From the NCBI GenBank assembly GCA_009929485.1, contig SAAJ01000015.1:1-64000 (forward strand): a stretch of 64,000 nt of DNA, written 5' to 3'. Positions 19,076 through 50,445 of the stretch are shown one piece after another; position 1 is the stretch's first letter, and the number at the start of each line of letters is the position of its first letter. The DNA is from Negativicutes bacterium. GTDB taxonomy: Bacteria; Bacillota; Negativicutes; Anaeromusales; Anaeromusaceae. A program made the translations under genes and the position numbers. Below the pieces are notes generated by a model. It made no database searches, was not told where the DNA came from, and saw only the letters and a list, made by a program, of their open reading frames with translations.

Positions 19076-19115
19076 AAAAAAACCATTTCATCCCTCTATA
19101 GGGGCGAAATGGTTT
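19076..19115 (-). terminator. first (distal) T-box terminator
   Basis: AAACCATTTC pairs with GAAATGGTTT, with CCCCTATAGAGGG as a further stem-loop on top, followed by seven T. Confidence 0.82.
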
Positions 19116-19374
19116 CGCGTTACCACCCTGGTTCAGAAAGCGCTGCTTTCCCTTTTTTTAGATACGGGCTCTAAGAACCGATATCCTAGCCTGCGATAAC
19201 GGGGGCTTCCGGTGCCGCCTACTTGCAACCGTTCAGCGGACAGCTCCTGGGACCATTCATTGCGTTCTGTCAGGCCGATCCTCACACCTCCGGTTGCCCG
19301 GTCATCGGCTCGCTGTACTGTAGATTACACAATTACTTTTCCCATTCAATGCTTTTGTTTTATGTGTTAACCAA

Positions 19375-43161: not shown

Positions 43162-43536
43162 CTAGCGCAACGCCAACACCCCGCAAGGGCATACATGGGT
43201 GCAGAGAGAACAGCCATCGCAACGCTGCCGATCAATGGTCACTTTCTGATTAACAAAGCAAATCGCCGCCTTGCCGCTCTCCTGACAAGCCACCATACAT
43301 TTTGCGCACTGCACGCAAGCTTCGGGAGCAACAACCGTCGAGCGCACAGCCCAGTTCATATTTAATTGTTCACGAGCAACTAGTTTCGGTACCGCCGCCC
43401 CAGTAATTTCCTGCAGCCTATGCAGGCCTTTTTTTTGCATATATTCTTCCAGGCCACGAAGCAACGGCGTAATAATAGAATACCCTTCCAGCATTACCGC
43501 CGTACACACCTGGACGCAGCTAGCCCCTACCGCCAT
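43162..43536 (-). CDS. C-terminal part of split PreA: ferredoxin domain
   Basis: The frame continues the PreA sequence exactly where the upstream frame stops: it begins MAVGASCVQVCTAVM, which belongs after GIATWRDVIE in intact PreA proteins, and ends with two [4Fe-4S] motifs, CVQCAKCMVACQ and CDGCSLCTHVCP. Its ATG shares TAATG with the upstream stop, so coupled translation of a two-part protein is possible. It lacks a ribosome site of its own, favouring a frameshifted gene. Confidence 0.75.
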   Translation of the reverse strand: MAVGASCVQVCTAVMLEGYSIITPLLRGLEEYMQKKGLHRLQEITGAAVPKLVAREQLNMNWAVRSTVVAPEACVQCAKCMVACQESGKAAICFVNQKVTIDRQRCDGCSLCTHVCPCGVLALR

Positions 43537-44348
43537 TACTCTATGACATCCCGCCAGGTTGCAATTCCTCCTACGCCATGAATCGGAACATCGGTTGCTT
43601 GAGAAATTTGCGCCACACAGCGCAAGCCGATTGGTTTAACCGCACTACCCGAATAACCGCCAAATGCGCTGTATCCGCTAACGGCAGGCAGCGGCTCCAA
43701 AGTATCAACATCTACGCCCAGAAGGGCCTGCACTGTATTAATTGCCACTATGCCGTCCGCACCGGCTTTGACCACCGCCATTGCCACATCCTGAATACTG
43801 CTGACATTCGGCGTCAACTTAGCCAGAACCGGAATGGTTACTTCTCTTTTTACACAAGCGACAATAGCAGCTGCCTTCTCTTCGTTTTTGCCTACAACCG
43901 CTCCCATCTGATCCTCTAACCGAAAATGCGGGCAAGATAGATTTAGCTCCAAAGCGTCCGCCCCCGCATGTTCCAAACGTCGCGCTAGTTTTCGCCATGA
44001 TTCCAGATTTGCATCCGCCATCATACTGGCAATAATAACTTTAGAAGGAAATTCTTCCTTCAACTCGCATATAGCGCGCTCCCAATACGCTACCGGTTTT
44101 TGCGTCATTCCTTCGAGATTTTCAAAGCCTGCAATCTCTCGGTTCTTGTTCCGCAATACTTCAAAGCGATTCGGAGCGTCAGGACTGCTCAGCTCTTCAG
44201 GAACACAGGTCTTAGTTACCGCCCCCGCCCAACCCAGCTTAAACGCTTTCGCAATCCCTTCTTTGCTTTGCGTCGGCGAAGCCGAAGAGAGCAGACAAGG
44301 ATTTTCCAGCTGAATCCCGCAAAATTGAACTTGCAAGCTTGTGTTCAT
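43536..44348 (-). CDS. preA: N-terminal part of split PreA: dihydropyrimidine dehydrogenase-like FMN domain
   Basis: A dihydroorotate-dehydrogenase-type FMN barrel of 270 residues: VQFCGIQLENPCLLSSASPT, AGAVTKT, LELNLSCPH, VPVLAKLTPN, GADGIVAINTV and HGVGGIATWRDVIE. In PreA, which reduces pyrimidines with PreT, the chain continues into a ferredoxin domain. Here the reading frame stops at GAG-TAATG; restoring one base (TAT-ATG) would fuse it to the next frame. GGGAGG lies six bases before the ATG at 44348. No preT gene is nearby. Confidence 0.8.
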   Translation of the reverse strand: MNTSLQVQFCGIQLENPCLLSSASPTQSKEGIAKAFKLGWAGAVTKTCVPEELSSPDAPNRFEVLRNKNREIAGFENLEGMTQKPVAYWERAICELKEEFPSKVIIASMMADANLESWRKLARRLEHAGADALELNLSCPHFRLEDQMGAVVGKNEEKAAAIVACVKREVTIPVLAKLTPNVSSIQDVAMAVVKAGADGIVAINTVQALLGVDVDTLEPLPAVSGYSAFGGYSGSAVKPIGLRCVAQISQATDVPIHGVGGIATWRDVIE

Positions 44349-44431
44349 TATTTTCCTCCCGTTTTCTACGCAATCCAAAAATTACTTTCCTCTGCCTACT
44401 ACTGTAACATCTTTTTTCGTCGAAGAGTAAT

Positions 44432-44510: not shown

Positions 44511-45788
44511 TCACTTAGGGAAATTAGCCCTTTGAAGTACTTGTACCATTTCATTAGCAAAATAATACTTCACCGTAGATTGTGCGCCAATAACCATGTT
44601 GCTTTCGGGATATTTTTGAAGTTTAGTAGCGGTGGTTCCGTCTGCATTCTTGACCAGACGAGCCAAAGTCAACTCTTTAACTTTTATTGGGCTGTTGCCA
44701 TGATTGGTTATATCAACATACCACCGCGCGGCATTTTCTTTTACTGAAAACACAAATTGAGGCATAGGAACGTCAATTTTGAGCGTATTGCTATTATCCA
44801 CGCAGTTTACTTTGTTAGGTGTATCCCACACCGTCTTGGACCCTTGACCTTCGCGCCCGATTGCCACGGTAAGATTCCGACGGCCAACGCCCTGACTATC
44901 GATCCAGATGCGAGCAGTGAAAGCATCCTTGGTTCCCAAACGCTCCGCCGCACCGCTTTCAATATACCGGATTGCCGTAAAATTAGTCGCTACTTCATCA
45001 TAACCGATGTCAAAATAACCATTTCCATGCGGCCCCCAAGTATCGCCCCAACTATTAAGGCATTTAAAGCTCTTCGTCAAGTCATTGTAGCCCACTACGG
45101 TTATACAGTGACCTTCCGTTGGATTGGGGCCTTGAATCTTAACAATCTTACCTTCAGCAAGAATCGGTCCTTTATCCAAAAGATATTTCATAGTCTCGAC
45201 CGAAGGGGTAATCGGGTCACTGAAAAGATTTATTTTATAGATGCGGGCTTCAGCATCTATAGTAGCGTTGGGCATTGGCATATTGCCCCACCCGAAAACA
45301 CCGTTAACAATAGCAGCTTTATCGTAGTCCGAGGGAAGCGTAGCTTCTGGACACAAGCCGTAATTTTCCAATAAATACTTGGTATTTACCGGCCCGCCAT
45401 TAGCTAATTGCTCTTGTCGAACGTGCAGATACCAAAACGAAAGATCTGGCGTATAGGGGTGTTTCATTTCATTTAAAATATTCATAGTATGAACGATGGA
45501 ACGCCCGATGCATCCGCCCCAGCCGTCTTGATTGCCCGTCAACGTTACATAGGAAGAATAGTCGACAATCCCTTTGAGCGGTATCTTCTGAAACTGCAAA
45601 GGTTTAGCCAGCTTGGCATCATTGTTAATAAAATCAGAATCGATTTTTTGGTAAACAGTCGGCTGGTTAGCACTGGCCCCTGTCACCGCAGCTGCGAAAC
45701 CAGTCGTGAGGGTAAAGACAGCCATAAACAAAAAAATGGTTCCCATGATAATGAGTAAATTACGCAATGAAACTAATAATTTTCTCAT
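44511..45788 (-). CDS. secreted papain-like (C1 family) cysteine peptidase
   Basis: A 425-residue protein with an N-terminal signal or anchor segment (residues about 8-34), a short propeptide-like stretch, a C1 catalytic domain (about 70-275) and a C-terminal beta-rich domain (about 290-420). The catalytic residues are visible: Cys93 in GGCIG, His227 in EGHCITVVGYN and Asn245 in LNSWGDTWG. It should act outside the cytoplasmic membrane. GAAGG lies seven bases before the ATG. It follows a guanidine-I riboswitch by about 155 bases, and that gap also carries a consensus TATAAT, so a private promoter is possible. Confidence 0.85.
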   Translation of the reverse strand: MRKLLVSLRNLLIIMGTIFLFMAVFTLTTGFAAAVTGASANQPTVYQKIDSDFINNDAKLAKPLQFQKIPLKGIVDYSSYVTLTGNQDGWGGCIGRSIVHTMNILNEMKHPYTPDLSFWYLHVRQEQLANGGPVNTKYLLENYGLCPEATLPSDYDKAAIVNGVFGWGNMPMPNATIDAEARIYKINLFSDPITPSVETMKYLLDKGPILAEGKIVKIQGPNPTEGHCITVVGYNDLTKSFKCLNSWGDTWGPHGNGYFDIGYDEVATNFTAIRYIESGAAERLGTKDAFTARIWIDSQGVGRRNLTVAIGREGQGSKTVWDTPNKVNCVDNSNTLKIDVPMPQFVFSVKENAARWYVDITNHGNSPIKVKELTLARLVKNADGTTATKLQKYPESNMVIGAQSTVKYYFANEMVQVLQRANFPK

Positions 45789-45944
45789 AACGAAACCTTC
45801 ATTTTTTTATTATTACACCACTCTCCTGGAATTTTATTACAATTACATTATATCCTACGTCGCCTCTTTTCAAAAGGCGGAAAATTCTTTCATTTGTTGC
45901 GGTTTATTCATATTTTATTACCGCCCCCATTCCTTAATGCAACT

Positions 45945-46090
45945 AAAAAATAAAGCCCGGAAAAATAACTGCCATTAGCAGCTACTCGCCCGGGCTTTTG
46001 TCCCTCCGTGTTACAATCGCTAGACCGTCCTTTCCTCTCGGGCCAGGCTAGCTTACGCTACGGAACCTTAGAAAACTATCTCTCTAGGCC
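45945..46090 (-). promoter_or_regulatory. guanidine-I (ykkC) riboswitch with terminator platform
   Basis: The minus strand carries the ykkC hallmark segments in order: CTAAGGTTCCG, a TAGC/GCTA hairpin, CCTGGCCCGAGAG, ACACGGAGGGACAAAAGCCCGGG. The last bases, AAAGCCCGG (45990-45998), can instead pair with CCGGGCTTT (45952-45960), followed by ATTTTTT, giving a terminator that excludes the aptamer 3' strand: an on-switch. Subtype 1 (guanidine) fits best; the ppGpp or PRPP subtypes cannot be fully excluded by eye. It starts 23 bases after the ric stop, and the next gene is the C1 peptidase. Confidence 0.85.
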
Positions 46091-46112
46091 GTCACCATCC
46101 ACTTTAGCGGCT

Positions 46113-46811
46113 TTATTGATAACGCTTAAAAAGAACACTATTTTCCTTAGCAATATGCAGAAATATATCATCTGCTAATTCATGGAGTTTAAGATAGACG
46201 GCCTTCATCGTAGGGCATGCATACTCTGGTGGCCTGAAATCATTGGTCTCTTTTATGATACGCTTAATAATTTGTCCAGCAACTTCATGTTCGCCTTCTA
46301 ATTCAAGAATTAACGAGCTTATCGCGGCCCTCTCCTCAGAAGTCTTATTCATTTTACGTATTGCCACGAATAATTCTTCTTCCTCTTTGGCAAAATGCTC
46401 CTCCAACTCCAACTTCAACTCGCTAAAGCTGCGATGCAGCTTCATAAGCAGTTCTTTGCCATGTTTGTAGTGAACAAGCAAAAGCTTATTTACAAGCTGG
46501 TCCAATTCCTTCCACAAAGCACGCTCTAGTTGATGATGGGTTTCAAGGATAAGGTCAATGAGTTGTTCATCCGACAACTCTGCTACAGGTATCTCCTTGT
46601 CGGTTCTGGCTAAATAATCACGGTAAGCGTCCTGGATTTCCGTAATAAAATCCAAAGTAAGCTTCGCTTCTTTTATTGCCGCCTCAAGTGTCCGGTCCCC
46701 CTGACAGCAGTAATCTATATGGAATTCGTTAAGACGCGAAGTAATGGGCGGAAAATAGGTTACAAGTTCTCCCAAAGGGGTCTGACCATTGACAGTAATT
46801 GTTTGCTTCAT
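46113..46811 (-). CDS. ric: iron-sulfur cluster repair di-iron protein (Ric/ScdA/YtfE)
   Basis: A 232-residue hemerythrin-like protein that repairs Fe-S clusters damaged by NO or oxidants. The N-terminal ScdA domain has FHIDYCCQGDRTL; the four-helix bundle supplies di-iron ligands in ETHHQLERAL, LLLVHYKHGKEL, EEHFAKEEEELF, ELEGEHEVAG and LHIAKENSVLF. The ATG at 46811 follows AGGAGG; an ATG six codons earlier has no site. It follows a ferredoxin gene, and a riboswitch begins just after its stop. Confidence 0.94.
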   Translation of the reverse strand: MKQTITVNGQTPLGELVTYFPPITSRLNEFHIDYCCQGDRTLEAAIKEAKLTLDFITEIQDAYRDYLARTDKEIPVAELSDEQLIDLILETHHQLERALWKELDQLVNKLLLVHYKHGKELLMKLHRSFSELKLELEEHFAKEEEELFVAIRKMNKTSEERAAISSLILELEGEHEVAGQIIKRIIKETNDFRPPEYACPTMKAVYLKLHELADDIFLHIAKENSVLFKRYQ

Positions 46812-46851: not shown

Positions 46852-47076
46852 CTAGGTTACGGAGATTACGCTGACCGGACAAACATTGGCTCCTTCACGC
46901 GCACATTCAGCTAGCTCTTCTCCGACGCTACCCTCCGCAGGATTTCCCGCAACCTGCCAAGACGATAAAATCTGGCTTTGGGAGTCTGCTGCGTTTTGTT
47001 CATAGACTTCAGGGCAAGTGTCCCAGCACATCCCGCAACTAATGCAATTGTCCCGATCAATGGTAATTGTAGTCAT
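46852..47076 (-). CDS. ferredoxin, single [4Fe-4S] cluster
   Basis: A 74-residue ferredoxin with ITIDRDNCISCGMCWDTCPE and a distant fourth-position-type Cys pair (C-ARE-GANVCPVSVI), the layout of monocluster ferredoxins of the Fer4_13 kind. The ATG at 47076 lies ten bases after AAGGAG; a TTG two codons earlier is too close. It sits between a lipoprotein gene and ric, which it may serve as electron donor (inference). Confidence 0.9.
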   Translation of the reverse strand: MTTITIDRDNCISCGMCWDTCPEVYEQNAADSQSQILSSWQVAGNPAEGSVGEELAECAREGANVCPVSVISVT

Positions 47077-48041: not shown

Positions 48042-48782
48042 CTAGAGAAAATGCTTAACTACTTCCGGCCCCACGCTCATCAAGCCACAGCTAATAAGCA
48101 CCATAATAACAACCTGGCGAAAGACAGCCGGAGAAACACGATGAAATGCCTTTTCCCCCAGCCAGGTACCAATAAGAACTCCGGGCACAATATAGCTAAT
48201 CAAAGGTAATACGGCAACATCCATAACTCCCATAAAATACATAGTTCCTAGAATAACAATATTATTTAGGCAAAAAAACCGCACTAAATTGGCCCGAAAA
48301 GCTACTTTATCCTGCTTTTGATTCATGAGAAACATCGCCACTACAGGCCCGCTCATGCTTGTCGCCCCGCCCATAAATCCGCCGATGCCTCCGGCGATAA
48401 TGGAAGCCAAGCGTTGACGACGAATCTGCACAGAAAAATTAGCAGCCAGTGCAATCGACATGAGAATTACAATGGTCCCCACCACTATTTTAAGCATTGC
48501 TCCGTCCACCAAATTCAGGAAATATACGCCCGGCAAAACCCCCACTATGCTGGCGGCAAACATAGGCAAAATCAAATAGAAATCTCCCTGACCCCTTGTC
48601 TTATGAATCACCATGAGATTTAAGATAAGGGCGCCGAAAATCGTTAAACTAATTACCTGCTTAGGAGCAATAAATAACATCAACAGAGGTGCGCCAACGA
48701 TATTAAAGCCGAAGCCGCTAACCGCCTGTACCGTCGAAGCAAAGATCACAGTCAAACACAAATAAATCGCTGTCATCGTCAA
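48042..48782 (-). CDS. TauE/SafE family sulfite/anion exporter
   Basis: An eight-TM membrane protein of about 246 residues with the paired DUF81 repeats: AVSGFGFNIVGAPLLMLF in the first half and GGIGGFMGGATSMSGPVVAMFLM in the second. It probably exports sulfite or an organosulfur anion. The start is likely TTG at 48782 (GGGGG seven bases upstream) or the ATG two codons later; the longer frame to 48839 adds a hydrophilic stretch without a site. Confidence 0.87.
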   Translation of the reverse strand: MTMTAIYLCLTVIFASTVQAVSGFGFNIVGAPLLMLFIAPKQVISLTIFGALILNLMVIHKTRGQGDFYLILPMFAASIVGVLPGVYFLNLVDGAMLKIVVGTIVILMSIALAANFSVQIRRQRLASIIAGGIGGFMGGATSMSGPVVAMFLMNQKQDKVAFRANLVRFFCLNNIVILGTMYFMGVMDVAVLPLISYIVPGVLIGTWLGEKAFHRVSPAVFRQVVIMVLISCGLMSVGPEVVKHFL

Positions 48783-48917
48783 AGTGCATCCCCCTTCCGT
48801 ACTGTTGCCAGTATACTTCTCCAAGGCAGGAGTTGACAATACTGATAATAAATCATTGTGCTTGGCTTGCCTAGCCGCTCACCATACCGTTAGGAAAAAA
48901 ATCTCCCTTTATCTCCA

Positions 48918-49262
48918 TTACTTTGCTAGATTAAGCTCATATCGTTCAAAATAACCGATTAACTTGCCCTGCTCATCACGAACCGGATTCATATAGATTC
49001 TTTGGTTTTTTATGCCTACGCCAATAAAAACCTCATTTCCATGGTTTTTAATTTTTTCAAAGGCTTCCAATATTTTTTGTTTTGACTTTTCATTATGACA
49101 AGCAAATAACGACTTGCCCAGCAAATTTTCATAGCCTCGCTCTTTATGATAATGATATTGGGCGGCATCGTTCATATACATTATGATATGGTCGCAATTA
49201 ACAAATAAAATCGGATAGGGGATGCTGTTCAAAATACAGGTCTTAATGTTTTCGAGTTCCAT
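48918..49262 (-). CDS. single PAS-domain protein
   Basis: A 114-residue protein consisting of one PAS domain (ILNSIPYPILFVNCDHIIMYMNDAA, then FEKIKNHGNEVFIGVGIKNQRIYMNPV). No output domain is present, so it may be a stand-alone sensor acting by protein contact. GGGAGG lies seven bases before the ATG at 49262; an ATG six codons earlier overlaps that site. Confidence 0.82.
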   Translation of the reverse strand: MELENIKTCILNSIPYPILFVNCDHIIMYMNDAAQYHYHKERGYENLLGKSLFACHNEKSKQKILEAFEKIKNHGNEVFIGVGIKNQRIYMNPVRDEQGKLIGYFERYELNLAK

Positions 49263-49455
49263 GTTTCTTCCTCCCATCAAAATTGCAAAAACGCAGTTCT
49301 TCAGCTACTCATTCCTGTAAGCAAAACAAAAAGGCTGGTAATCCGCTATGTTTAAAATTATCATTAATAATGACGCCGGTCAAATTTTTCAATAGAAGAC
49401 AAAAAAAGAAGCTCTCATTATTTCTTGCTACGCAAGCTAGAAAGGCGGTTTCACC

Positions 49456-50445
49456 ATGAAGATTCTCATCGTCGGCCATTTTAGCGATACCTCAAAAGCA
49501 ACCGTTACAAATCACTTTCCCGAAAACTGGGATGTTGTGATCGTCCCTCCAGGAGAAGATGTACTGCAGCACATAAAAGACTGCCAGGTACTCATACCGG
49601 AGCATCTCAAAGTAGACCACAGTCTGCTTTCTGCCGCCCCCCATTTAAAGCTGGTACAAACAGGCGCAGGCTATGACAATGTAGATGTTGACGCCTGCAC
49701 AAAGCTTGGTATTTGGGCCGCCAACGCCGCTGGCGTAAACGCGCAGGCCGTAGCTGAGCATGTCCTGGCACTGCTATTGTCTTACTATAAAAACATACCG
49801 TTTCTTGATACGTTCATGAAAAACAAACTGGATGAAAATCAACTGAACTATACCGGAAGCGAACTAGCTGGCAAAACGATAGGAATTGTCGGTTTGGGCG
49901 CCATCGGCAAAAAAGTGGCTGCATTTTGCAAAGCCTTAGATATGAACGTGCTGGCTTGTGTTAGAAATCCATCTGTAATCTCTGATGACTTGGTAAAAAC
50001 AACGGACTTTGATACCCTCGTCAGCACAGCGGACATCATAAGCGTACACGTACCCTTGACGCAGCAAACCAAGCAGTTGTTCAACAAAGCCGTCTTCCAG
50101 CAAATGAAGCAAACGGCTCTTTTTATCAATACTGCCCGCGGGGGAATCGTCAAGGAAAGCGACCTAATCGACGCATTAAAAAACAGAGACATACTGGGCG
50201 CATGCCTCGATGTGTTTGAATCGGAGCCGCTCCCAATGTCCAGCGAGCTTCGAACTTTGGATAATGTGATTCTTACGCCCCATACGGCAGGTCTTCCCGA
50301 TGGCCGCAAGTTTCACAAAAAGCGCTATGACTTCTTTATACAAAATATAAACCGCATAGCCAACGGCGAAGAGCCGAATAGCAAGCTCAATCAAATCGTG
50401 TCCGTTGAAACACGTCCAACGAATGCATCGGAGGAACTCCCATGA
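49456..50445 (+). CDS. D-isomer 2-hydroxyacid dehydrogenase
   Basis: A 329-residue NAD-dependent dehydrogenase. The substrate domain is split around a Rossmann domain with GKTIGIVGLGAIGKKV; catalytic Arg (NTARGG), Glu (DVFESEPLP) and His (LTPHTAG) are in place. AAGGCGG precedes the ATG. Its stop overlaps the fosX start (ATGA), so the two are translated together; the substrate is not predictable, though a link to phosphonate or hydroxyacid chemistry is suggested by the pairing. Confidence 0.9.
   Translation: MKILIVGHFSDTSKATVTNHFPENWDVVIVPPGEDVLQHIKDCQVLIPEHLKVDHSLLSAAPHLKLVQTGAGYDNVDVDACTKLGIWAANAAGVNAQAVAEHVLALLLSYYKNIPFLDTFMKNKLDENQLNYTGSELAGKTIGIVGLGAIGKKVAAFCKALDMNVLACVRNPSVISDDLVKTTDFDTLVSTADIISVHVPLTQQTKQLFNKAVFQQMKQTALFINTARGGIVKESDLIDALKNRDILGACLDVFESEPLPMSSELRTLDNVILTPHTAGLPDGRKFHKKRYDFFIQNINRIANGEEPNSKLNQIVSVETRPTNASEELP

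Follow-up and report, generated by a model that had tools for sequence, protein, structure and literature searches.

A stretch of non-coding DNA between the gene ric and a papain-like peptidase gene in a Negativicutes bacterium very probably holds an orphaned guanidine-I riboswitch, which is decaying and has lost its output genes. Its terminator would now end a ferredoxin–ric unit, and the peptidase gene would simply be a neighbour with a promoter of its own. This is ordinary and well-documented decay, of which the locus is a clear example. The analysis covered a stretch of 64,000 nucleotides, here called the window, together with related genomes from the same class.

The riboswitch lies within positions 45789-46112, which are exactly the gap between the ric stop codon and the peptidase start codon, and ric, the RNA, and the peptidase gene all lie on the minus strand. 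Directly upstream of this gap, ric (46113-46811) encodes a ScdA/YtfE-type di-iron Fe-S repair protein with ScdA_N and hemerythrin domains (TIGR03652, E 1e-54). Upstream of ric is a small ferredoxin gene (46852-47076, minus strand), an open reading frame with a CISCGMC motif. A second copy of ric and ferredoxin is present on contig C20 (L055, 3401-4162), beside nitrate-reductase-type genes, and its ric protein is 84% identical.

The first-pass annotation had named the gene after the gap as a papain-like C1 peptidase, and this identification stands. The gene (44511-45788, minus strand) encodes a secreted-type protein of 425 amino acids, which matches Pfam PF00112 slightly below threshold (20.0 bits, cut-off 20.7, E 8e-4). 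In an alignment of seven sequences, with relatives from the class at 24-31% identity, Gln87, Cys93, His227, and Asn245 are invariant, which gives the protein the catalytic Cys-His-Asn and the oxyanion Gln of the C1 (papain) family. A search of 380 class genomes returned distant homologues and no close relatives, the nearest being a remnant in the sister genome G001. A pattern scan of the genome_contigs collection found no relatives of the peptidase. The PreA/dihydroorotate-dehydrogenase-like gene at 43162-44378 is read as two overlapping frames in the window and as a single frame in the sister genomes G001 and G002; the split is either a frameshift or an assembly error.

The proposal that the gap contains a ykkC aptamer with a mutually exclusive terminator is borne out. 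In a permissive scan, positions 46082-45985 matched the Guanidine-I family (RF00442) over the whole model (1-107 of 107) at 61.1 bits, where the gathering score is 63. Because of this shortfall, the aptamer was not listed by a whole-window cmscan at gathering thresholds. The E-values of 1.6e-10 for a 501-base stretch and 2.4e-10 for the whole genome exclude a chance match, and homology to RF00442 is not in doubt despite the sub-cut-off score. That the covariance score is sub-threshold is informative in itself.

At the subtype-diagnostic position 46, which we take to be the single A in CCGAG-A-G, the window aptamer carries an A. Guanidine-I RNAs have an adenosine where the ppGpp and PRPP aptamers have a pyrimidine (PMC6031431). 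To check this placement, about 60 ykkC RNAs of the class were grouped by the base found there, with an additional, spurious-looking A hit (L088) set aside. After RNAs with A come gdx pairs, radical-SAM genes, or a small membrane protein, and a few of these RNAs appear to be orphaned; after those with C or T come glutamate synthase, branched-chain, purine, and similar genes. The ppGpp and PRPP subtypes (ykkC 2a/2b) are rejected for the window RNA, which has A instead of a pyrimidine at the equivalent of A46. The diagnostic base supports the guanidine subtype claimed at first pass, subtype 1 of the ykkC family. The only other ykkC RNA in the genome, a ppGpp (subtype 2a) riboswitch at C43:64046, shares the fold of the window RNA and has a similar covariance score (63.2 bits). 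It differs in carrying C at the diagnostic position and in preceding a glutamate-synthase-type gene, where a glutamate-synthase amidotransferase domain is encoded.

Although its identity is clear, the aptamer (45985-46082, minus strand) is degenerate at two otherwise invariant positions, a feature that the first-pass annotation had no means of seeing. Two columns that are identical in 30 of 30 subtype 1 relatives are altered in the window, CTAGGG having become CTAAGG and GGGAG having become GGGCG. The first change (G15 to A) breaks a P1a pair, and the second lies near the S-turn of the binding site. Four further departures from the same 30 relatives fall in near-invariant columns. Helix P1 forms five of six pairs and P1a one of two, while all 24 relatives checked form six and two. 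A working switch needs a near-invariant core together with full P1 and P1a pairing, and the window aptamer lacks this combination. It has kept the diagnostic A, the GGAnAAAA loop, and the CACGG core. The window RNA has a mean identity of 74% to the gdx-type group, whose members share 84% on average among themselves. These changes point to an aptamer that is decaying and that probably has little or no affinity left for guanidine; since it is mostly intact, with a score not far below the family cut-off, it may still bind its ligand weakly.

The terminator has fared better. It spans 45945-45998 on the minus strand, and its hairpin (45998-45952), followed by T's, uses the 3′ arm of aptamer helix P3, so that the two structures are mutually exclusive. 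The fold has a predicted energy of -32.3 kcal/mol (z -6.5), and none of 200 shuffled sequences was as stable. It is homologous to the terminators of gdx-type guanidine-I RNAs. The promoter is another matter: a minus-strand scan with the standard 16-18 spacing found no promoter-like site before the window aptamer, whereas the relatives have TTGACA-N17-TATAAT ahead of theirs. The TATAAT noted at first pass does lie between the terminator and the peptidase gene (45852-45847), where it forms part of a promoter-like TTGAAA-N15-TATAAT (45847-45873, minus strand). Its 15-base spacer is shorter than consensus, and the scan with 16-18 spacers did not list it. The ATAGGATATAA of this promoter-like region is partly retained in G001. 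As these elements lie downstream of the terminator, the peptidase gene is probably transcribed from there, using a promoter of its own.

Guanidine-I riboswitches usually have a guanidine-related gene downstream, though this is not strictly defining. No such gene follows the window aptamer: the next gene is the papain-like peptidase, and only a candidate gdx start stub is left. The nearest relatives suggest what once stood there. Eleven RNAs of the class share both aptamer and terminator with the window at 68-78% identity, and nine of them lie upstream of a two-gene SMR exporter (the gdx pair). This two-gene arrangement is known as the guanidinium exporter Gdx (PMC12186494). BLAST homology to these relatives starts at the 5′ edge of the aptamer and mostly stops at the edge of the terminator.

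Just past the terminator, the window sequence GGGGGCGGTAATAAAATATGAATAAA scores 21.9 bits with a weight matrix built from 10 gdx1 start sites, and the start at 45911 on the minus strand outscores all others among the 6,202 start triplets of the window. The putative vestigial start (45870-45911, minus strand) has a ribosome-binding site, GGGGGCGG, just upstream and begins ATGAATAAA; its frame reaches a stop after 13 codons (MNKPQQMKEFSAF). It lies 47 nt after the terminator GGGCTTT, a distance that is 42-58 nt in eight of the 10 relatives. The evidence for a gdx1 remnant is strong but not conclusive, because what the matrix chiefly picks out is ATGAAyAAA behind a good ribosome-binding site, and a chance pairing of ribosome-binding site and ATG could give the same result. 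A tblastn search of the region found no SMR coding remnants above chance past the candidate start codon. The genus has one single-gene SMR elsewhere, with no guanidine-I RNA beside it in G000, the genome in which its surroundings were read.

Detailed comparison with the gdx-type loci of the class (L011, L012, L014-L017, L066, L067, and L069) shows both the kinship and the losses. The window shares with them the aptamer architecture, the diagnostic A, a closely similar overlapping terminator, and a ribosome-binding site and ATGAAyAAA start at equal distance. Unlike them, it has no gdx genes after the start codon and no promoter, two of its invariant bases are altered, and an unrelated protease comes next. 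Two other guanidine-I RNAs in the class, L065 (genome G312) and L068 (genome G318), resemble the window in having an intact terminator and no gdx pair, but their aptamers show no departures from invariant columns and their promoters are kept. In L065, the RNA, terminator, and promoter are followed by the oxidase gene that comes after the gdx pair in L014 and L017. L068 has kept a gdx1 start stub, ATGCGCAAAATATGA. Orphaning has therefore occurred more than once in the class. A literature search returned nothing specific on orphaned guanidine-I switches.

Of the sister genomes, G001 has mostly lost the aptamer, and G002 lacks the whole stretch. In G001, where the flanking genes are 85-95% identical to those of the window, ric is deleted between its ribosome-binding site and its stop codon, P1, P1a, and P1b are lost, and the CACGG core is in decay; of the rest, the terminator is retained, while fragments are all that remains of the peptidase. 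In G002, a lipoprotein gene runs directly into the dihydroorotate-dehydrogenase-like gene, and all intervening elements are missing. Genome G060, labelled as the same species, has no match to the region and lacks orthologues of those neighbouring genes that were tested, and therefore gives no comparison. Positions 48042-50445 are likewise about 85-95% identical in G001 and G002 and have no match in G060, which reflects either a regional absence or a mislabelled or contaminant contig.

A sequence of events can be proposed. The ancestor would have been an ON switch, in which the guanidine-bound aptamer blocked the overlapping terminator and allowed polymerase to enter the gdx pair. A deletion running from the start codon of the pair to where the peptidase promoter now lies would then have removed it, so that only the ribosome-binding site, the ATG, and the 13-codon stub remained. 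The riboswitch promoter would have been replaced or lost, hence the present position of the RNA 30 bases behind ric. Most likely, the terminator persists as a plain terminator of the ferredoxin–ric unit, and the peptidase gene is transcribed from its own promoter beyond it.

The first-pass annotation had offered two readings, an orphaned switch or a peptidase that responds to guanidine. The former is strongly supported by the vestigial gdx start, the decayed aptamer, the lost promoter, and the parallel orphans; for the latter we found no positive support, and guanidine control of the peptidase is unlikely. Such control would require a working switch captured by the peptidase gene, with guanidine blocking termination so that transcripts of the ric operon read into it. 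Gene order and strand are compatible with this, the terminator is strong and mutually exclusive with the aptamer, and the aptamer retains the diagnostic A along with most of the bases of its core. However, two invariant bases are altered, one of them disrupting a core pair, no promoter belonging to the switch was found, and a separate promoter-like sequence lies past the terminator. A survey of 110 guanidine-I loci spanning many phyla turned up an SMR gene within 3 kb downstream in 29 and a homologue of the peptidase in none; the fixed consensus pattern used to collect the loci biases this sample to intact switches. No guanidine-I locus examined in the class precedes such a peptidase either, and in G001 decay has affected the aptamer and the peptidase alike but has spared the terminator. 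We consider a captured switch very unlikely, and its more elaborate form, a partly remodelled switch that gates read-through from the nitrosative-stress gene ric, slightly less probable again.

The element might instead be kept for its upstream side, with the aptamer gating the 3′ end, stability, or termination of the ferredoxin–ric mRNA. Both G000 and G001 do retain the terminator immediately after the ferredoxin(–ric) unit. Yet G001 has lost the aptamer half of the element and ric itself and kept the terminator, so aptamer gating is not needed there, and we know of no link between guanidine and ric; this role is highly improbable. Less likely still is a new ykkC variant that regulates the peptidase in response to another ligand. 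A few mutations are known to switch ykkC ligands (PMC6031431), and the substitutions in the window aptamer are unusual, but the diagnostic A is unchanged, the two substitutions occur in none of the 30 aligned subtype 1 relatives, and one of them merely breaks a core pair. An altered specificity thus has barely any likelihood.

If the orphaned switch is the right reading, the locus records the stepwise death of a riboswitch, in which the genes are deleted past the start codon, the promoter is lost, the core is mutated, and the terminator is retained for another use. It would also serve as a warning against guessing ligands from gene context, since the gene next to a riboswitch need not be under its control. 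The locus gives no evidence of a new guanidine-linked function.

Other guanidine-I RNAs of the class stand before different genes. Nine (L003-L006, L009, L013, L062, L063, and L077) precede an unannotated membrane-type protein of about 107 amino acids (MENKW...FAWSATIFMFYARYKMQSQFWFKVAS), which has no Pfam match and is a candidate for an unrecognised guanidine-related gene. L007, L070, and L073-L076 precede a radical-SAM-like protein (LEVNILPEKYCNFDCIFCPIG). Elsewhere in the window, a T-box leader lies at 19097-19358 on the minus strand (119 bits).
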